Source of the DNA: Salipiger mucosus DSM 16094
Lineage (GTDB): Bacteria > Pseudomonadota > Alphaproteobacteria > Rhodobacterales > Rhodobacteraceae
DNA: 64,000 bases
Assembly: GCF_000442255.1 (NCBI RefSeq)
Contig: NZ_KE557273.1
Location: forward strand, 552,662-616,661
Direction: 5' to 3'
Below the pieces are notes generated by a model. That model saw nothing but the letters and a program-made list of their open reading frames with translations. It was not told the DNA's origin and made no database searches. Both the position numbers and the translations under genes were made by a program. Position 1 is the first letter of the stretch. Every line of letters starts with the position of its first letter. This document shows, one piece after another, positions 13,163 through 59,554 of the stretch.

Positions 13163-14256
13163 GCGGGACGGACGCAGGCCACATGGCCCACGCCCTGCGG
13201 CTGGGCCGGCGGGGCGATGGGGCGGTGGCTGGCCGAACCCCGCCGTCCGGCTGCGTGATCGTGAAGGACGGCCGCGTCGTCGGCCGCGGGCGCACGCAGG
13301 ACGGCGGCCGCCCCCATGCCGAGGTCGTGGCGCTGGCCGAGGCCGGCAAGGCCGCCTTCGGCGCCACCGCCTATGTCACGCTGGAACCCTGTGCCCATCA
13401 CGGCAAGACCCCGCCCTGCGCCGAGGCGCTGGTCCGGGCCGGCGTGGCGCGCGTGGTGGCGCCCATGCCCGACCCCGACACCCGCGTTGCGGGCAAGGGG
13501 TTCGACCGGCTGCGCAAGGCCGGGATCGAGGTCACGACCGGCGTTCTGGCCGAGGAGGCGGCGCGCGATCACGCGGGCTTCGTCCTTCGGGTCACCAAAG
13601 GCCGCCCCATGGTGACGCTGAAGCTCGCGTCGAGCTTCGACGGGCGCATCGCCACGGCGACGGGCGAGAGCCAGTGGATCACCGGCCCCGAGGCGCGCCG
13701 CGCGGTGCACGGGCTGCGCGCGTGCCACGACGCCGTCATGGTCGGCGCGGGAACGGCACGGGCCGATGATCCCTCGCTGACCGTGCGCGGCTGGGGCGAT
13801 GTCCCGCAGCCGGTGCGCGTCGTGGTCTCGCGGCTGATCGACGTGCCGCTGATGAGCAAGCTCGCCTCGAGCGCGCGCGAGGTTCCGGTCTGGGTCGTGC
13901 ATGGCTCGGACGCCGCGCCCACGATCCGCAAGGCCTGGGACAGCTGCGGTGCGCGGTTGGTGCCGGGCACGGTCAAGGGCGGGCGCATCGAGCCCGAGAC
14001 CATGCTGGCGCGCCTCGGCGAGGCCGGGCTCACGCGGGTCTTCTGCGAGGGGGGCGGGCAGCTGGCCGCCTCGCTGCTTGCGGCGGATCTCGTGGACGAG
14101 CTGGTGGGCTTTACCGCCGGCATGGCGCTGGGCGCCGAGGGACGGCCGGGGATCGGGGCCATGGGCGTCGACAGTCTTGCCGAGGCGCCGCGCTTCGAGC
14201 TCGTGGAGGCGCGGCCGGTGGGCGGTGACGTCATGCACCGCTGGCGCCGGACCTGA
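13159..14256 (+). CDS. ribD: Riboflavin biosynthesis deaminase/reductase RibD, with local frame disruption
   Basis: 365 aa from the GTG overlapping the nrdR stop (GTGA). Bifunctional enzyme of riboflavin synthesis: the N-terminal deaminase has zinc site HAE (RPHAEVVAL) and [11 protein letters not shown]; the C-terminal reductase includes [13 protein letters not shown] and [10 protein letters not shown]. Where relatives have WPNPAVGCVIV, this protein reads [12 protein letters not shown]. The DNA at 13230-13247 does encode WPNPAV, but in another frame, bracketed by two extra bases (about 13228-13229) and one extra base (13248). The net change is +3, so the gene stays open. This is either sequence error or a real double indel that would damage the substrate-binding Asn loop. 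Confidence 0.93.
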
Positions 14257-14314
14257 TCCCGCGGAGCGCGCCTGCGGCGCGCGCAGGTCGGATTGCGTTC
14301 GGGCCACGCGGGCC

Positions 14315-14364
14315 CCGGGGGAAATCCCCCGGACCCCCTTTGCGTATTTTTGAACAAGAAGAAG
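14315..14364 (+). terminator. Terminator-like hairpin with TGCGTATTTTT motif
   Basis: 7-bp stem CCGGGGG / CCCCCGG with AAAT loop. It is followed about 9 bases later by TGCGTATTTTTGAACAAGAAGAAG. The second part belongs to an intergenic motif also seen twice, inverted, at 19645-19718. It lies between the convergent ribD and KpsC-like genes. Confidence 0.55.
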
Positions 14365-14374
14365 AGACCTGGGG

Positions 14375-16414
14375 TCAGCGGCGCCAGAGGTGGGCCTGCG
14401 TGGCGAAGAGGCCCTGGAGCTTCGACAGCGTGCGGTTGAGCGGGCCGGGCGCCGGTATGGGGCCGGTTTCCAGACGGTCGAGGATGACCTCGACGGGGCA
14501 GGGCAGGCCGCTGACCGGGTCGCGGTAGCGGGGGTAGGCAATGAGCGTGGCGTGGACGAGGCCCTCGAGCGTGGGTCTCGGGCCTTTCAGGCGCCGGTCG
14601 GGGACGGGGCCGAGGTCGCGCGTGAGGCCCCAGCCGGCGTAGAAGGGCGCGCCGAGCGTGGTGACGGGCACGCCGCGCAGCAGCGCCTCGAAGCCCGCGA
14701 GGGATGTGAGCGTCCAGACCTCCTGCACCTCGGGCAGCAGCGCGCCGATGTCGGTCCGGCTGAGCGTGGCGTCGGCCCATCGCTCGGGGGTCTCGACCGC
14801 GCCGGGGCGCAGGCCGGCCTCGACGTCCGGGTGCGGCTTCCAGAGGATCGTGGCACCGGGGTTCTCGGCGCGGGTGCGTTCGAGAAGTCCCGCGTTGGTG
14901 CGGATCTCGGGGCTGCCGAGGCGGATGGAGGCGTCATCCTCGACCTGGCCCGGCACGAGGATGCGATGCCCGGGGGGGAGCGCGGGGGGCGGGCGGCCGG
15001 TGTTGTACTTGGAGATGCCGCCCTGCGCGATCCGCTCGACCAGGCGCCGGGCGCGCGCGGCCTGGCCGGGGCGGAGATCGGTGGAGGCGGCGATGAGCCG
15101 TTCCAGCCGCGACGGCCCGGTCGGGTCGTAGTAGATGCCGAGATCGTCCAGCACCAGCGAGAGGGGCGGCACCAGCTCGGCGCCGAGCCCGCGCGAGCGC
15201 AGGAAGCCGTCCTCGACGCGGCAGGCTGCATCGCCGGGCGTCGCCTTGCCGGCCCAGATCATGCGGCGGCGGCCCGAGCGTGCGGCGCGTTTGCGGGCGG
15301 TATCGGGGGCCGGGGCGAAGATGACTGGGCGATGCCCGCCAAAGAAGCCCTGCAGGGGCCGGCGTTTCCAAAGCCGCATGCCCTCGGCCACCCAGCCGTG
15401 GCGGTCCTCGCGCCAGGCGCGGACCTGCGCCTCGAAGGCCGCGAGCGCGTCCTCGAAGGGGCAAAGCCGGTCGCGGCAGGGATCGTACCAGGTGGGGTAG
15501 AGGATCATTGCCGCTGCGAAGAGCTGCGCGCGGGTCAGGTTGCGGGTGCGGCGGGGCAGGGAATGCTCGTCCGTGGTGAGGCCCCAGCCCGCGTAGAAGG
15601 GCGTGCCGAAGACGCGCGGGCGGTGGCCGGCGAGGATGGCCTCGAAGCCCATCTGCGAGGAGACCGTGTAGACCGCCGTGGCGCCCTCGAGCAGGGCCTG
15701 CGGCGCGATGTCCGCGTCGCAGATCGCGATGCGGCCCTGCGCGTCGGCCGCGGTGAAATGGCCCGGGCGGTGGCCCGCGCGGGTCTCGGGGTGGGTGCGG
15801 AGCAGGACGCGCTGGCCCGGGTTCTCTTCCTGTGCCCAGTAGAGCATCTCGAGGAAGCGGTTGCGGTCGGCGCCCGAGGCGCGGACCGAGGCGTCGCCGG
15901 CGGTCTGGTCGACCACGAGGACATAGCCCGGCTCGGGCAGGGGGGCATCCGGGTCGTGGGCGGCGTATTTCGACAGCCGCGCCTCCGTGATGCGGGCCAT
16001 GCCCTCGCGGGCGCGCTCGAGCAGGGCGTGATCGTCAAGCGGATGGCTGGCGAGCAGCGTCTCGAGGTCGGAGGGTGTCCGCGCGTCGAAATGCACGCCG
16101 CTGCGGTCGAGCAGCAGCCCCAGCGGCGGCTCGCCTGCGCGGCCCGGGTGCAGCGAGCGCAGGAAGGCGTCCTCGACACGCAGCAGGCCGGCTCCGGTTC
16201 GGGCGGCCAGCGCCTCGCCCCGGTGCGCGTAGGGCGACTGGCCCCAGACCCCCACGGTGTCCTGCGCGCCGGGCCGGCCGAGCGATACGCGCCAGCCCGC
16301 CAGCGCCAGGATGCGTCGCAACCGGGGCTCTCGCAGGAAGCCGGCGGTGCGGACGTAAAGACGCCGGGAGCTTTCACTCCCGGCGCCACCCTGTCCCTCG
16401 TTATGGTTATTCAG
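14375..16414 (-). CDS. kpsC: KpsC-like capsule polysaccharide (Kdo linker) transferase, start uncertain
   Basis: About 680 aa with two tandem homologous halves, as in KpsC, which builds the beta-Kdo linker on phosphatidylglycerol for group 2 capsules. Each half has a VED(A/G)FLRS block and a FYAGWGLT motif (two copies). Homology clearly begins at RRLYVRTAGFLRE, but no ATG/GTG/TTG lies just before it in this frame. The options are CTG at 16414 (GGAGAG five bases upstream, overlapping the wza stop), ATG at 16504 (88-bp overlap), TTG at 16321 (removes conserved residues), or GTG at 16389 plus a frameshift. Third gene of the leftward capsule block. Confidence 0.88.
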   Translation of the reverse strand: MNNHNEGQGGAGSESSRRLYVRTAGFLREPRLRRILALAGWRVSLGRPGAQDTVGVWGQSPYAHRGEALAARTGAGLLRVEDAFLRSLHPGRAGEPPLGLLLDRSGVHFDARTPSDLETLLASHPLDDHALLERAREGMARITEARLSKYAAHDPDAPLPEPGYVLVVDQTAGDASVRASGADRNRFLEMLYWAQEENPGQRVLLRTHPETRAGHRPGHFTAADAQGRIAICDADIAPQALLEGATAVYTVSSQMGFEAILAGHRPRVFGTPFYAGWGLTTDEHSLPRRTRNLTRAQLFAAAMILYPTWYDPCRDRLCPFEDALAAFEAQVRAWREDRHGWVAEGMRLWKRRPLQGFFGGHRPVIFAPAPDTARKRAARSGRRRMIWAGKATPGDAACRVEDGFLRSRGLGAELVPPLSLVLDDLGIYYDPTGPSRLERLIAASTDLRPGQAARARRLVERIAQGGISKYNTGRPPPALPPGHRILVPGQVEDDASIRLGSPEIRTNAGLLERTRAENPGATILWKPHPDVEAGLRPGAVETPERWADATLSRTDIGALLPEVQEVWTLTSLAGFEALLRGVPVTTLGAPFYAGWGLTRDLGPVPDRRLKGPRPTLEGLVHATLIAYPRYRDPVSGLPCPVEVILDRLETGPIPAPGPLNRTLSKLQGLFATQAHLWRR
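16362..16385 (-). other. Perfect 9-bp inverted repeat at the wza-kpsC junction
   Basis: CGCCGGGAG / CTCCCGGCG with a 6-base loop. On the minus strand it is followed by TCTTTACG. It overlaps the first conserved KpsC codons, so it could attenuate transcription or hide the ribosome site between the two capsule genes. Confidence 0.5.
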
Positions 16415-16416
16415 GG

Positions 16417-17562
16417 TTACTCTCCGCTGACCGCCGTGGCCGTCGTGGCCAGCGTGCTCACAGCCCCCAGCGAGCCGGTCAGGGCGGAGATGGTCTTGCT
16501 CCACTGAGCGTAGGGTGCCTCGGTGACGTAGAGCGTGTCCTGGTCGCGGACGACGAAGTCGCGCGCCATGAACATGCCGTTGGGCTGCGTCAGGTCGAGG
16601 ACGTAGACCATGCGCTGTGCGCCGATCAGGTCGGTGCGTCCGAGGACCTGGTTGGCGATCTCGGCGGGTTCGTTGCGGAAGACGAAGACGCCGGTCGGGT
16701 CCGAGGCGGTGGGCACGAGCCCGCCGACCTGGGCGATGGCCTCGACCGCGCTCAGCGTCTGGGTCTCGAAGGGGACGCGGGCCTGGGTGCCGGTGGCACC
16801 CAGCGAGGTGAAGGCGCGGGTGTCCTGCTCGACGAGGATCCGGTCGCCGCCACGCAGCGCGATGTCATAGGAGGGATTGTCGTAGAGGTCCTGGAACCAG
16901 ATCTCGCCCTGGTGGCCGCCGCGCAGCACCTTGACCTGCGCCACCTCGGGCGGGATCGTGATGCCGCCGGCGCGGGCCAGCATGGCCGAGAGCGTGCGCG
17001 TGGGCCGCTCGATGGCATAGACGCCCTGGCCGCCCACGGCGCCCACGAGGCTGACGGTCGAGCCGTCGCCGGCGAGGCGGCGCACCTCGACCTGCGGGTC
17101 GGGGGTCTGTTCCTCGAGGCGGTCGGTGATGATGCGGCGCACGGCCTCGGGCGAGTTGCCGGCGGCGCGGATGCGGCCTGCGTAGGGCACGAAGATGAAG
17201 CCCGAGCCGTCGACCTGCACCTCTTCGAGGCGGGTGGCGTTCGCCTCGCTCGCGGCGAGCAGGCCGTCGTCGACGTTTTCCCAGACGGTCAGGCCCAGCG
17301 TGTCGCCGGGATTGATCGTGTCCGAGCCCAGCACGCCGGCGCTCTGGAACTGTTCGGAAAAGCCGAGCGCGGGCACGACGGCGGTGGCGCGGGTGACGCG
17401 GTCGTTCACGGCGACGACGAAGGCGTCGCCCTCCTGCATGACCGAGCCGGAAAAGATTTCGCGTTTGTTGGGGCCCATGCGCGGCAGGCCGCAGGACGCC
17501 ATGAGCGACACGGCCGCGAGAACCGCGACGGTGCGGACCCATCGCTTGCGGGGATAAATCAC
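16417..17562 (-). CDS. Polysaccharide export lipoprotein (Wza/KpsD/CtrA-like)
   Basis: 381 aa outer-membrane polysaccharide export (OPX) protein forming the capsule exit channel. The signal peptide ends in a lipobox-like LMASC with Cys near residue 24. A polysaccharide biosynthesis/export domain follows (INPGDTLGLTVWENVD) with SLBB-type repeats (VSLVGAVGGQGVYAI, LSAVEAIAQVGGL). It is flanked by KpsC- and KpsS-like genes on the same strand, so the set belongs to an ABC-dependent (group 2/3) capsule. The KpsM/T/E exporter genes are not in the window. Confidence 0.9.
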   Translation of the reverse strand: MIYPRKRWVRTVAVLAAVSLMASCGLPRMGPNKREIFSGSVMQEGDAFVVAVNDRVTRATAVVPALGFSEQFQSAGVLGSDTINPGDTLGLTVWENVDDGLLAASEANATRLEEVQVDGSGFIFVPYAGRIRAAGNSPEAVRRIITDRLEEQTPDPQVEVRRLAGDGSTVSLVGAVGGQGVYAIERPTRTLSAMLARAGGITIPPEVAQVKVLRGGHQGEIWFQDLYDNPSYDIALRGGDRILVEQDTRAFTSLGATGTQARVPFETQTLSAVEAIAQVGGLVPTASDPTGVFVFRNEPAEIANQVLGRTDLIGAQRMVYVLDLTQPNGMFMARDFVVRDQDTLYVTEAPYAQWSKTISALTGSLGAVSTLATTATAVSGE

Positions 17563-17658
17563 TGCTCGGTCTCCTCGACCTGTTCTTGTTCTGCCTCAGC
17601 TTTTTTGTCCAAGGTACCGGAATCCCGGCAATTGCGCCAGTCCCGCGGCCCCGGGGAC

Positions 17659-18939
17659 CTAGTGGACGAGGCGCAACTGTTGCCTTGGGGCCGCGGTGCC
17701 GTGACGCAGGGCGTCGTAGGGATCGTCGGGAGAGAGCATCATGTCGACCACCAGCCGCAGCAGCTGGCGGCGCCCGCGGGCCGAGTAGAAGCCGCCCGGC
17801 ACCTGGCTGGTTTCCAGCAGGTAGCGGCGGTAATCCTTGTAGGCGCGCATGTCGGGCCGGTCGGGCTGGGCAAAGAAGGCGTCGAGCGGCTGGGTCGAGA
17901 CGAACTCGGGCTTGGCGTAGACCGCGGCACCGAAGACGCGCAGGGGCAGGCCCCGCCAGAGCACCTGCTGCGCCGCCGTCGAATTGACCGTCACCGCGCT
18001 GCGCGCGTCGTCGAGCAGCCGGGCGAGCTTGCCGCCCCGGACGTAGTGCACGCGATCCTCGACGCCGTGGCGCGTGGCCAGCTCGCGGATCGTGCGGCGC
18101 AGCGGCACGCGGCCGTTCTCCAGCGGGTGCGCCTTGAAGACGAGGTGGTGGTGCCCGGGCGCGCCGCGGGCAAACCCCTCGACCACCACCTCGAGGAACG
18201 CGCGCATGGAGGAAAACGGCGAGTGCTGGCGAAAGCTCGCGTCGTGCTCGAGCTGCAGCAGCGCGAGGTGGTAGGGAAAGCCGCCCAACCGGATGCGCTG
18301 GGTGGCCACCAGGCGCTCGGCCCGGTGCAGGGGCATGAGCAGCAGGCGTTGCAGGTAGAGGCGGAACTCGCGCGCGACGGTCAGGTCGCGGTGCGGGCGG
18401 AAGTTGCGGTAGGCGCTGTTCCGGAACATCACGAACCAGTGGTAGAGCGCGCCGTAGAAGATGTGATGGCGCATGTCGCCCCAGTGACCGGGCGGCAGCG
18501 GCGCCTCGAGGTCGGACTGCGCGAGGGCGGCGCGCATCCGCGCGATGTCCATCTCCATGAGCCGCGAATGCCCGTTCGCGCCGCCGCGCTCGTAGGTGAC
18601 CCAGTAGGGACGCATGTAGCCTTCCTCGAAGACATGCACCGCGATGCCCCGCGCGCGGGCCTCGGTGACGGCATCGGCGTGGATCGGTCGCGTGTCGCCG
18701 TAGAGGACGATGTCGGTGACGCCCTTCTCCTCGACCAGGCAGCGCAGCCTGGCGGGCCAGTCCTCGGGCCTGCCGGCGTAGGGGATGTAGCTTGCCGGGT
18801 GGAACCAGAAGGCGCGGTCACCCGCGTTGAACCCCACGCGCCAGACCTCTGCTCCCGCCCGGCGCAGCATGGCGCCGAGGCGATGGAAGAAGGGCCCGTG
18901 CGGCCCCTGCAGGAAGAGGAAGACCCGTTGCTTGCTCAT
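17659..18939 (-). CDS. kpsS: KpsS-like capsule polysaccharide (Kdo) transferase
   Basis: 426 aa from ATG at 18939 (MSKQRVFLFLQGPHGPFFHRLG); the open frame upstream runs into the ribE promoter and is not conserved. The protein matches KpsS/LipB, which adds the first Kdo to phosphatidylglycerol for capsule anchoring. Visible family segments are FLQGPHGPFF, VFEEGYMRPYWVT, VFKAHPLENGR and VTVNSTAAQQVL. First gene of the leftward capsule block; about 95 bp separate it from the export lipoprotein gene. Divergent from ribE. Confidence 0.9.
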   Translation of the reverse strand: MSKQRVFLFLQGPHGPFFHRLGAMLRRAGAEVWRVGFNAGDRAFWFHPASYIPYAGRPEDWPARLRCLVEEKGVTDIVLYGDTRPIHADAVTEARARGIAVHVFEEGYMRPYWVTYERGGANGHSRLMEMDIARMRAALAQSDLEAPLPPGHWGDMRHHIFYGALYHWFVMFRNSAYRNFRPHRDLTVAREFRLYLQRLLLMPLHRAERLVATQRIRLGGFPYHLALLQLEHDASFRQHSPFSSMRAFLEVVVEGFARGAPGHHHLVFKAHPLENGRVPLRRTIRELATRHGVEDRVHYVRGGKLARLLDDARSAVTVNSTAAQQVLWRGLPLRVFGAAVYAKPEFVSTQPLDAFFAQPDRPDMRAYKDYRRYLLETSQVPGGFYSARGRRQLLRLVVDMMLSPDDPYDALRHGTAAPRQQLRLVH

Positions 18940-57459: not shown

Positions 57460-57508
57460 AACGGGCTTGCGCCGAGGTGCCGCTCTGGCATATGCCCCTT
57501 GCAACGGT

Positions 57509-57584
57509 GCCCCTATAGCTCAGCTGGTAGAGCAACTGATTTGTAATCAGTAGGTCGGGAGTTCGAGTCTCTCTGGGGGCACCA
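57509..57584 (+). tRNA. tRNA-Thr (UGU)
   Basis: 76 nt cloverleaf. Acceptor GCCCCTA pairs with TGGGGGC (one G-U), the D arm has GCTCAGCTGGTAGAGC, the anticodon stem ACTGA/TCAGT encloses TTTGTAA (anticodon TGT, Thr), the T arm has GTTCGAGTC, and CCA is encoded. The 3' end is the left half of a 21-bp direct repeat that recurs at 59534, so the tRNA served as an integration target and was kept intact. Confidence 0.96.
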
Positions 57585-57589
57585 GTTTC
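57569..57589 (+). repeat. attL-like direct repeat in tRNA-Thr 3' end
   Basis: CTCTCTGGGGGCACCAGTTTC, covering the tRNA T-arm end, acceptor, CCA and five bases beyond. An identical copy is at 59534-59554. Together they bound the small element in between, the classic mark of tyrosine-recombinase integration. Confidence 0.88.
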
Positions 57590-57639
57590 CAAAGGTAAGC
57601 CGCTGTTTTCCCTCAGCTTCAACACGAGCTGAGCCGAGG

Positions 57640-57649
57640 CGTAGACCAT
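57640..57649 (+). repeat. CGTAGACCAT copy 1 (left end of element)
   Basis: The ten-base sequence ends within the integrase start codon region (the ATG of 57648 is in it). Two more copies are at the right end (59410-59419 and 59422-59431). Possibly an arm-type integrase binding site. Confidence 0.5.
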
Positions 57650-58163
57650 GCTGGAGACCAAGACCGCCGCTTACACATTCGTGAAGCAGGGCATCTACTA
57701 CTTCTCAAGACGCGTTCCGAGCGACCTGAGACACCATTACACGACACCGCGAGTCATGTTTTCGCTTCGCACCAAATCCGTTGCCGTTGCAGCGTCCAGG
57801 GCAACACGAGCTGCGCAGAAGTTGGACGAGCATTGGTATCACCTGCGCATTCAAGAGGTAGAACTTCCGGGGAAGCACCTACTCCGCTCTGCACCTGGTC
57901 AGGCAGTCGCGTCCAACTCGGGAAGCGTTCGGCCAGCCGAAGACGCTGTGAGCCTTAGTGAAGCCGTCGCTATCTACCTTCGGCTGAAGGGCAAAAACCG
58001 TCCTGTGACCTTCCACCGTGCCGCCGAGCGATCCTGCGGCTACGTCATCGACTCTTGCGGCGATAGGGCCATCACGGCCTATACCGAGACACGCTGCCTC
58101 GAGACCTCGCTCCGATGGTTGTCCTCGACGCGTCAGGACGCTGTCGCGAGACTTACACCCTGA
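57648..58163 (+). pseudogene. Tyrosine integrase remnant, catalytic domain missing
   Basis: 171 codons. The N-terminus (TFVKQGIYYFSRRVPSDLRHHY) and the following helix-rich segment match the N-terminal domain of alphaproteobacterial tyrosine recombinases inserted in tRNA genes. The core-binding region starts (TFHRAAERSCGYVIDSCGDRAI) but the frame ends soon after, and no catalytic R..HxxR..Y block is found downstream. Truncated from about 380-400 aa. Its TGA overlaps the ATG of the next gene (TGATG), so it may still be translated and could keep DNA-binding ability. Confidence 0.78.
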
Positions 58164-58567
58164 TGGAACAGGAGCGAGGCAACCTGGAGCGACTGCCGTC
58201 CGCCGTGAAGGACTACAGTAACCTGAGGATCAACCTCTGGTCCAAGCCGTGGCGTTCTGCCGGAGCGACAAAGCTGCCAGGGTCCATTCAGAAGGCGCTG
58301 GAAGTGATCGATCAGTGGGACCACGAGGGCTTCGGCGACGGGATCGTCTTCGCAGAGGTGGCGGAGAAGATCGGGATGCCCCGGAAGGACTTCAACAAGC
58401 GCGTCGCCAGGGACCCACGCTTCAAGCAAGAGCTGGCCCAGCGCGGCTATGACGAGGTCACGCTCCCACGGCAGAGCAAAAGGGGGCACAGGTCTGCCAA
58501 GGGCATCGCCCGGACTGCACCGGCCTCCGCCTTCGCTCCTGACCCCGAGGCCTCCTACACCGTCTGA
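58163..58567 (+). CDS. Unknown protein of the tRNA-Thr element
   Basis: 134 aa, starting by TGATG overlap with the integrase remnant. The frame is open to an ATG at 58115. The central part GIVFAEVAEKIGMPRKDFNKRV looks like a helix-turn-helix, followed by a basic C-terminus (KRGHRSAKGIARTA) and a short acidic end. I do not recognise the family; a DNA-binding role is a guess. The coupling with the truncated integrase is odd if both are decaying. Confidence 0.5.
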   Translation: MEQERGNLERLPSAVKDYSNLRINLWSKPWRSAGATKLPGSIQKALEVIDQWDHEGFGDGIVFAEVAEKIGMPRKDFNKRVARDPRFKQELAQRGYDEVTLPRQSKRGHRSAKGIARTAPASAFAPDPEASYTV

Positions 58568-58831
58568 GAGCCTCCGGACCTTTTGGGGGTCAGATATCTG
58601 AGCGGCTTATTACTAAGGCGTGCGCTCGGCTTTCCCCCCATCACCCCTGGCGCCCTCCATCTCCTGCGAGGGCATTCGGTGCCACCATTGCCGCAACCAA
58701 CGCTAAGGCTCGAGTTGCGCACGAGACCTCCAGTTGAGGTTCAACTTCCAGCCCCCACCGAACGCCGGTCTGCGGACCCTCCACCGGTAGCCGCCGATTT
58801 CGTGTGCGTTCAACTGAGACCAAGGACAATC
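58568..58831. other. Element spacer without a convincing gene
   Basis: 264 bp between the two unknown genes of the element. The downstream frame is open back to 58583 but the extension (Pro/Leu/Arg-rich) does not look coding. No clear promoter or terminator was seen. Confidence 0.4.
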
Positions 58832-59407
58832 ATGCCCGACACCAACACCCTGACGGACCTTCTCGGTGAACCACGTCCATCGATCATCAGCACCTGGGAC
58901 ATCGTTGTTACGCCCTCGCTCTCCGTGAGTCTTGCCCGGGCAGAAGCCGAACAGCCGGAAGATGTGAACGATGGCTTGGTCCACGCTGTAACGTCGCCTG
59001 GCCGCATCGCCTACGCTCTCGGAGAGATAGCGACCCTGAAGGCCAACCTCAGCGAGCAACAGGAGCGCTTCATCAGATGTGCGGCCTACCGTTCACCACA
59101 CGAAGCTGTCCTCGAAGGCCAGCCATGGCTCGAGCGAGCGCTTGAGGGCCACACCCGCTACCGGGACACTCTCGCCCCCTTCATCTGGCGTTCCATCAAC
59201 ACCTCCACAGCCACGGACTGGGAGATCGCGGAACGGATTGGCGAACCACTACGGCTGGTCAAGCAAGCTCGTTTGGTGAAAAACGCTCTGATAGGCCGTG
59301 GCCTGCACCTTCCTGCATCCTGGTGCGAGGCTCTGGACCTGGCGGCACACAAAGCACCCGAAGCCTTCAGCCGCACTCATGCCATACGTCGTCAGCAAGC
59401 CACCTAA
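58832..59407 (+). CDS. Unknown protein of the tRNA-Thr element
   Basis: 191 aa from the ATG at 58832 (AAGGACA upstream). Acidic N-terminal half, then helical segments: GEIATLKANLSEQQERF and TATDWEIAERIGEPLRLVKQARL, the latter resembling a winged-helix or resolvase-type HTH. No catalytic motif, signal or membrane segment. It ends just before the CGTAGACCAT pair at the right end of the element, where cargo or regulatory genes of such elements usually lie. Confidence 0.55.
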   Translation: MPDTNTLTDLLGEPRPSIISTWDIVVTPSLSVSLARAEAEQPEDVNDGLVHAVTSPGRIAYALGEIATLKANLSEQQERFIRCAAYRSPHEAVLEGQPWLERALEGHTRYRDTLAPFIWRSINTSTATDWEIAERIGEPLRLVKQARLVKNALIGRGLHLPASWCEALDLAAHKAPEAFSRTHAIRRQQAT

Positions 59408-59409
59408 AC

Positions 59410-59431
59410 CGTAGACCATTCCGTAGACCAT
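59410..59431 (+). repeat. CGTAGACCAT copies 2 and 3 (tandem, right end)
   Basis: Two copies of CGTAGACCAT with 12-bp periodicity (59410-59419, 59422-59431), about 100 bp inside the right direct repeat. With the copy at 57640 they frame the element and suggest integrase or excisionase arm sites. Confidence 0.65.
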
Positions 59432-59533
59432 CCGGTGCCTGTTGACGCCGGGTGGTCGATGCTCATACCCCTTGTTTTGCTGAAGGGAAGACCCGAAAGG
59501 GTGCCTGCAACGGGAACCAAACCAAGCCCCCCG

Positions 59534-59554
59534 CTCTCTGGGGGCACCAGTTTC
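59534..59554 (+). repeat. attR-like direct repeat
   Basis: Exact 21-bp copy of the tRNA-Thr 3' end (CTCTCTGGGGGCACCAGTTTC). Only the CCA-proximal end of the tRNA is duplicated here, so this is the distal junction of the element. Confidence 0.88.

Follow-up and report, generated by a model that had tools for sequence, protein, structure and literature searches.

The question raised by this stretch, a window of 64,000 nucleotides on contig NZ_KE557273.1 of Salipiger mucosus DSM 16094, is whether the short segment beside its tRNA-Thr gene is a small mobile element in its own right or what is left of a larger one. An earlier note, made from the letters of the window, had described a segment of lower guanine-plus-cytosine (GC) content integrated at this tRNA between exact repeats, and the coordinates, the repeat scan and the GC profile all agree with that description. 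The integration target, tRNA-Thr(UGU) (57509–57584, + strand, as are all features below; ARAGORN), is intact. Its 3′ end is overlapped by a 21-bp core, C3 (attL; 57569–57589), which recurs exactly and in direct orientation as C1 (attR; 59534–59554), the shared sequence being CTCTCTGGGGGCACCAGTTTC. A third match with up to three mismatches was absent from the 64 kb, and 100 shuffles gave none. The interior between the repeats (57590–59533) measures 1944 bp, and its GC content in 500-bp steps is 0.56–0.63 versus 0.70–0.74 in the adjoining ~2 kb on both sides, with values down to 0.61 farther from the segment in the same profile.

The closest intact relative among 12 compared, on contig 21 of genome G349 (locus L113), aligns to this segment in pieces separated by large deletions, whereby the earlier suggestion that it might be the scar of a larger island holds. 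Positions 57507–58083 match the tRNA, core, head and integrase gene (int) of L113 at 78%, 58082–58246 its helicase gene at 81%, and 58245–58691 the helicase gene and its flank at 76%, with overlaps of ~2 bp at both deletion joints. Based on this piecewise match and on the helicase pieces, the segment is a non-autonomous remnant, left by deletion, of an integrative element whose family targets tRNAs. At least two deletions would have taken from it the integrase catalytic domain, a complete inverted second attachment site (attP; its core is termed C2) present in the relatives, any cargo and most of the helicase. Overall, it is very probable that the window holds a relic of a widespread family marked by this inverted attP. 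The layout, the near-identity of the repeats inside an element, the arm-site pattern, the cargo isomers and the relic can be read from the sequences, and the mechanism proposed below is inferred. The sharper claim, that the integrase of the family does two jobs, tRNA integration and a replication-coupled inversion multiplying the excised circle, with the window as a wreck of such an element, is advanced only tentatively.

The intact elements and their inverted attP

The inverted layout was first met in genomes G277 and G218, where int is followed by an inverted copy of the core, the head and its own first codons (84 bp at 98.8% and 88 bp at 100%, respectively). In G218, the cargo is further enclosed by inverted copies of the helicase gene, tail and core, which match over 3183 bp at 100%. 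Read in the direction of int, the left part of an integrated element consists of the tRNA, C3, the head, int and then head, C2 and tail in inverted orientation. The right part consists of a helicase or other gene (inverted; in some elements), the cargo, the helicase or other gene in direct orientation, the tail, C1 and the host DNA. Around C2 lies a second attP, complete and inverted, placed at the 3′ end of int or close to it. Counting core matches with no more than two mismatches in 14, the tRNA-end core occurred at least twice directly and at least once inverted (C3, C1 and C2) in 11 of the 12 elements tested. The twelfth, L075, showed C3 and C2, and its right-end tRNA repeat was found separately.

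Integrase searches gave 35 matches in 27 of 394 genomes of the taxonomic family (E ≤ 1e-60), 21 matches in 8 of 20 genomes from the genus of G064 and 16 matches in 8 of 337 genomes drawn from the class (both at E ≤ 1e-80). Judging from these matches, the inverted-attP element family is widespread in Alphaproteobacteria. A scan of named genomes for the helicase yielded 17 loci, in 10 of which a helicase copy lay within ~2.2 kb of a contig end, some of these contigs being short anyway; long exact repeats may explain some contig breaks in draft assemblies. The locus set of 47, a part of all matches, combined 20 regions from the family-genome search, 20 from the searches of the G064 genus and the class, 6 from the helicase searches (L059, L063 and four of the 17) and the megaplasmid of Ruegeria sp. 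TM1040. Its integrases, about 43–98% identical to the queries, were counted when the frame reached at least 365 amino acids (aa), which left 43. A tRNA gene stands beside int in 36 of the 47 loci (Thr, Phe, Leu, Ser, Arg or Gly; 12 anticodons), and the loci with an inner repeat are associated with tRNAs of 11 anticodons.

An inner inverted repeat was defined as a blastn self-match (E ≤ 1e-5) in which one arm begins at most 300 bp upstream of the int start and the other no more than 4.5 kb after its stop. Such repeats, holding the core, the arm and the start codon, flank int in 36 of the 43 full-length loci, 23 of them at 99% identity or more. The distance from the int stop codon to the second arm is at most 58 bp in 23 of the 36 and at most 1.6 kb in 32. 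Four shorter integrases outside the count (L129, L130, L131 and L224) have no inner repeat. In comparison, none of 40 other phage-integrase loci of the window's genus had one; these controls were hand-picked stretches of ±2.5 kb, avoiding Xer-like top matches and multi-copy sets, some being cut by contig ends. Ten of the 40 had a tRNA in the stretch, one contained a 34-bp self-palindrome and one, L178, a distant family relative. Of the 36 loci with an inner repeat, 12 also showed an outer one. An assembly artefact was considered and rejected, the full layout being present in the complete TM1040 megaplasmid and in the single-contig genome G064; inner repeats also occur in the single-contig genome G641 (L220, and L221 at 89%).

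The putative arm-type sites tend to follow a common pattern, with two direct copies of a motif in the tail and one in the head at the int start codon. The motif varies between elements and agrees within each: it is GTAGACCA in the window, G277, TM1040 and others, GTAGTACA in G218 and L065, GTAGAACA in L114 and CTGACCA-like in G064. The tail pair recurred in its own head in 15 of 22 sets, each time exactly 12 bp apart, against a mean of 0.014 and at most 1 in mononucleotide shuffles. The seven failures comprise L115–L118 and L128, whose tails are cut by a contig end, and L112 and L119, in which the pair is present and not exactly repeated in the head. In the common form, the inner repeat stops a few bases past the head arm-type site; since it reaches past that site, C2 belongs to a complete attP. 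In L123, L125, L211, L213 and L217 it runs on into int, and L072 has a repeat of 233–265 bp only and still keeps C2.

L072 has int and the helicase gene as its only open reading frames (ORFs) above 100 aa, and the cargo of family elements includes type I restriction-modification. The helicase in question is a protein of ~640 aa found in G218, G277, the TM1040 megaplasmid and an Azospirillum plasmid; its AlphaFold model (pLDDT 82) had DinG/XPD as the best Foldseek hits (E 4e-15, TM 0.40–0.47), and it is predicted to be a superfamily 2 (SF2) helicase of the DinG/XPD fold. Another subtype encodes a protein whose N-terminus is primase-like (PHROG E 2.7e-24) and which gives a weak match to a helicase. 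The 1077-aa protein of L121 gave no significant BLASTP match to the L065 helicase, and the two are therefore treated as analogous; no solved structure was matched by the sequence of the 1077-aa protein. Searched in PHROGs, the three window ORFs and four proteins of relatives gave primase, replication-origin-binding, integrase and anti-repressor matches, and no structural genes.

Several further observations were made in these loci. A CAP12/Pycsar-type gene with a TIR domain lies within the type I restriction-modification cargo of L065 (5920–6627). L219 (G641; 13771–17733, counted in the direction of int) has two TPR-like genes whose 5′ halves lie in a 931-bp perfect inverted repeat and whose 3′ halves differ, an arrangement resembling an invertible gene switch. 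In two Microvirga loci, L071 and L077, a complete tRNA-Arg or tRNA-Thr gene is duplicated on either side of a stretch of ~10.7 and 8.6 kb, respectively, which has a helicase relative toward its right end and no family integrase match at E 1e-6. The contig of L076, labelled Flavobacteriaceae and possibly misbinned, carries the helicase and has at both ends a 141-bp perfect inverted repeat in helicase-coding sequence.

Orientation of integrase and cargo

When C3 was joined to C1 by script in ten of the elements tested for cores, selected for a known C1, the resulting circles contained inverted repeats of 265–3252 bp at 96–100% in all ten, the inner and outer repeats being fused. These repeats surround int with an attP in each, and by length and place they span the core; they measure 1216 bp in TM1040 and 3252 bp in G218, both at 100%, and among the circles are ones from the complete megaplasmid of TM1040 and from G064, a genome in a single contig. 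Excision by C3 × C1 recombination would yield a circle with two near-identical inverted attPs around int, inside long inverted repeats. Int may then recombine the paired attPs, which would flip the cargo relative to int; coupled to replication by the helicase or primase of the element, such inversion could multiply the circle in the way known of Flp and the 2-micron plasmid. Integration beside a tRNA would part int from the tail, and the integrant in this form may be the stable state.

Cargo isomers of the kind expected from inversion do occur. Four elements, three in G064 and one in a congener of it, G424, share a cargo of ~5 kb at 86–90%, oriented one way relative to int in L121 and L217 and the opposite way in L122 and L212.

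Several points weigh against the proposed mechanism. The elements were analysed as assembled sequences, and excised circles, amplification and inversion are predictions from these. The 2:2 cargo count comprises four elements, with L122 and L212 orthologous to each other; the same isomers would also arise by homologous recombination in the repeats. Moreover, two equal attPs predict a flipped int in about half of the integrants, whereas int was flipped in 0 of 36 and reads away from the tRNA in all 36 tRNA-linked loci, which makes it doubtful that both attPs are freely used in integration. This bias must come from regulation or selection, or else the second attP does not serve integration. Seven of the 43 full-length loci have no inner repeat; L225, L227 and L228 end within 775 bp past the int stop, while L126, L127, L214 and L219 do not, and the inner repeat of L120 is decayed (77%). 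In ten of the 24 inner-repeat loci in which no outer repeat was detected, the sequence after int extends beyond 5 kb (L063, L075, L120, L123, L213, L215, L220, L221, L222 and L223), so contig ends are not the sole reason for its lack. At the window's own site, thiP/aceE synteny revealed no empty site with both window flanks in 19 congeners, because aceE, the downstream flank gene, lies elsewhere in those that have it (11 of 19, never beside this tRNA) and the 3′ flank of tRNA-Thr is largely strain-specific.

The constant direction of int is also an argument for reading C2 as a regulatory device, either by antisense transcription from the C2 tail into int or as an inversion on/off switch, with no amplification involved: with int in the tRNA direction in 36 of 36 loci, orientation evidently matters. 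A promoter-like spacing, TTGAC-N16/17-xATAxC (one TTAACC), points toward the core in 11 of 22 tails. However, it is confined to one subtype, a sigma-70 consensus scan gave no promoter in the window element, and a promoter in the tail is weakly supported. A regulatory role would also leave unexplained why helicase and Bro genes, and hundreds to thousands of base pairs, are duplicated at up to 100% identity. We regard it as unlikely, albeit the strongest competitor of the proposed mechanism.

Somewhat less likely still is that the repeats are only a recombination platform, on which homologous recombination or cassette exchange swaps cargo and int, and Int never acts on C2. L217 has the same cargo as L121 in the same genome, G064, with another int subtype and another tRNA target, and int modules thus appear exchangeable. 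Repeats are also closer within than between elements, as gene conversion would give: in L121 the inner and outer repeats are 100% and 95% identical, and between elements the values are 93% and 88–89%. Yet the common inner repeat is confined to a complete attP, a limit that homologous recombination by itself would not impose, and L072 retains C2 despite its very short repeat.

The relic beside tRNA-Thr and its genus

The window segment retains the framework of the family, with core, head and a DUF6538 integrase on the left and a tail pair with core on the right. The head (P′ arm; 57590–57650) aligns with the heads of intact elements and has one putative arm-type site, CGTAGACCA, at 57640–57648, overlapping the integrase start codon. 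The tail (P arm; 59408–59533), 90% identical to L113 over 59408–59516, carries two copies of the same site at 59410–59418 and 59422–59430, 12 bp apart, so all three putative sites stand at family distances. A complete inverted attP (C2) is absent from the window, the core having two matches only, both direct, which is consistent with deletion.

The genes between the arms are mostly fragments. ORF1 (57648–58163) matches DUF6538 (E 8e-19) and nothing of a catalytic domain, which confirms the integrase remnant recognized earlier. The remnant proper (57648–58083) comprises codons 1 to ~145, that is DUF6538 and the part following it, and its reading frame continues past 58083 to 58163; the segment is consequently without a functional tyrosine recombinase of its own, the integrase being full-length in intact relatives. 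When intact proteins are aligned to the window, integrase residues 1–148 run straight into residues 310–363 of the large protein, followed by its C-terminal part, with the integrase–helicase fusion joint at ~58083. Accordingly placed in the alignment are a helicase remnant at 58082–58246 (about residues 310–363 of the intact 633-aa protein), which contains the start of ORF2 (58115–58567), and at 58245–58567, after an internal deletion, a C-terminal remnant of the same helicase that makes up the rest of ORF2. The first ~45 residues of ORF2 match the interior of the ~640-aa protein, and by alignment this frame is two fused pieces of helicase and no gene of its own. The conserved flank downstream of the helicase gene follows at 58568–58691, and then an accessory slot (58692–59407) with ORF3 (58832–59407, 191 aa), which in L113 is occupied by a Bro/anti-repressor gene. 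ORF3 had no match in 295 genomes of the family, PLSDB plasmids, INPHARED phages or Pfam, and a single weak one in PHROGs (E 0.04). Of the two genes that had been called unrecognised, only ORF3 thus keeps that description.

That the segment is a functional mini-element or satellite, with ORF2 and ORF3 acting, is very improbable. Its attL and attR are complete with putative arm-type sites, and ORF3 is an open frame in the accessory slot; however, ORF1 and ORF2 are fragments, the one without a catalytic domain and the other a fusion, and the genome of the strain contains no intact integrase of the inverted-attP family; its matches are this relic and a distant one (E 7.5e-16). The satellite-like element offered as one option by the earlier note is accordingly abandoned in favor of the deletion relic. 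Its idea of excision in trans fares better and is plausible, since both att half-sites keep putative arm-type sites at family spacing, although the host genome lacks an intact enzyme of this family. With attL and attR complete, a related Int in trans could free a circle of ~1.97 kb, and the element would be locked until a relative supplying Int arrives, because its own genome has no intact family integrase.

The segment was also searched for in 20 genomes of the genus, the window's own included. Outside that genome, matches were tRNA-like, the exceptions being a few short ones and a pair of pieces that share a contig in G017, and none of the 19 congener tRNA-Thr loci carries the segment, which is thus not the fixed part of the chromosome that the earlier note had named as the alternative. 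The gene thiP lies upstream, within the fetched stretch, at 16 of these 19 loci, and the sequence 3′ of the tRNA mostly differs from strain to strain. With this largely strain-specific flank, the tRNA-Thr site looks like an integration hotspot. One might see here an ordinary island scar, with the inverted layout of the relatives arising from independent chance insertions of a second element, as the variable 3′ flank and the commonness of double insertions at tRNA hotspots would allow, but this is hardly credible given the same layout across integrases ~43–98% identical to the queries and tRNAs of 11 anticodons, and its absence from all of the control loci.

Other traces of the family were met in the genus. 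In G017, a broken, 3′-truncated integrase is joined to a tail between two core copies, as read from its sequence, and this relic is independent of the one in the window. A 3.2-kb contig of G008 encodes a full-length family integrase, and G014 has a distant relative of it, also full-length. The tRNA-Thr locus of G015 shows faint remains of a related integrase (39.5% over 43 aa, E 2.5e-5).

The tRNA gene itself also varies. The T-stem of the window's tRNA-Thr is GGGAG/CTCTC versus CGCGG/CCGTG in 17 of the 18 congener tRNAs shown whole, with pairing kept, and G013 (L041) alone has the same T-stem as the window. In G003, tRNA-Thr(UGU) (L047; L027, 1283–1494, − strand) is split near the anticodon by an insert matching group I introns (RF00028, 43.4 bits, E 1.4e-9, under the gathering score of 50). 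G015 contains many repeated sets of three adjacent tyrosine recombinases (e.g., C1:1106627–1109450), with 53 Phage_integrase matches in the genome, which we take to resemble recombinase-in-trio elements.

Relation to known systems

The family shares with known tRNA-targeting tyrosine-recombinase islands the integrase beside a tRNA, the core repeating the tRNA 3′ end, direct attL and attR, putative arm-type sites and cargo, for example type I restriction-modification. Only attL and attR would be expected in an integrated element; unlike such islands, the intact relatives described here keep a third, complete inverted attP at or near int, many with long inverted repeats. Tycheposons and PICMI satellites are likewise integrative elements of marine bacteria, and neither is known to have an inverted attP or inverted-repeat layout.

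The closest parallel in layout is the yeast 2-micron plasmid with its Flp/FRT system, and to our knowledge an arrangement for recombinase-driven inversion and amplification is known only from yeast plasmids. In both, a recombinase gene lies between two head-to-head sites in inverted repeats (here in ten of ten in-silico circles, not in the window relic), and inversion isomers occur (here the cargo at 2:2 in four elements, with int flipped in 0 of 36). In contrast, the present family is bacterial, integrates at tRNAs with a directional int and carries helicase- or primase-like genes and cargo. The likeness is one of layout: replication and amplification in the family would be as proposed above, and kinship of Int and Flp is no part of the comparison. 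For the 2-micron plasmid, a recombinase, sites in inverted repeats, inversion isomers and a proposed inversion-coupled amplification are described (PMC6594588).

Strand-biased circularizing elements are also integrative and moved by tyrosine recombinases; according to their description, they need intA, tfp, intB and srap and were found in Gammaproteobacteria only, whereas the family here has one integrase gene, tRNA targets, an inverted attP and hosts in Alphaproteobacteria (PMC10214605). Among the literature matches listed, a scope that did not extend to preprints and most subscription journals, there was no description of an inverted second attP beside an integrase. The nearest concerns direct or inverted repeats near an integrase in islands beside a tRNA gene in Tardiphaga (PMC7701988).

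The full inverted attP and the near-perfect repeats suggest that inversion of an element, and perhaps its amplification, can be carried out by its own site-specific integrase. The layout illustrates a possible way for type I restriction-modification and other cargo to be shuffled at tRNA sites, and it makes a testable prediction for many genomes.

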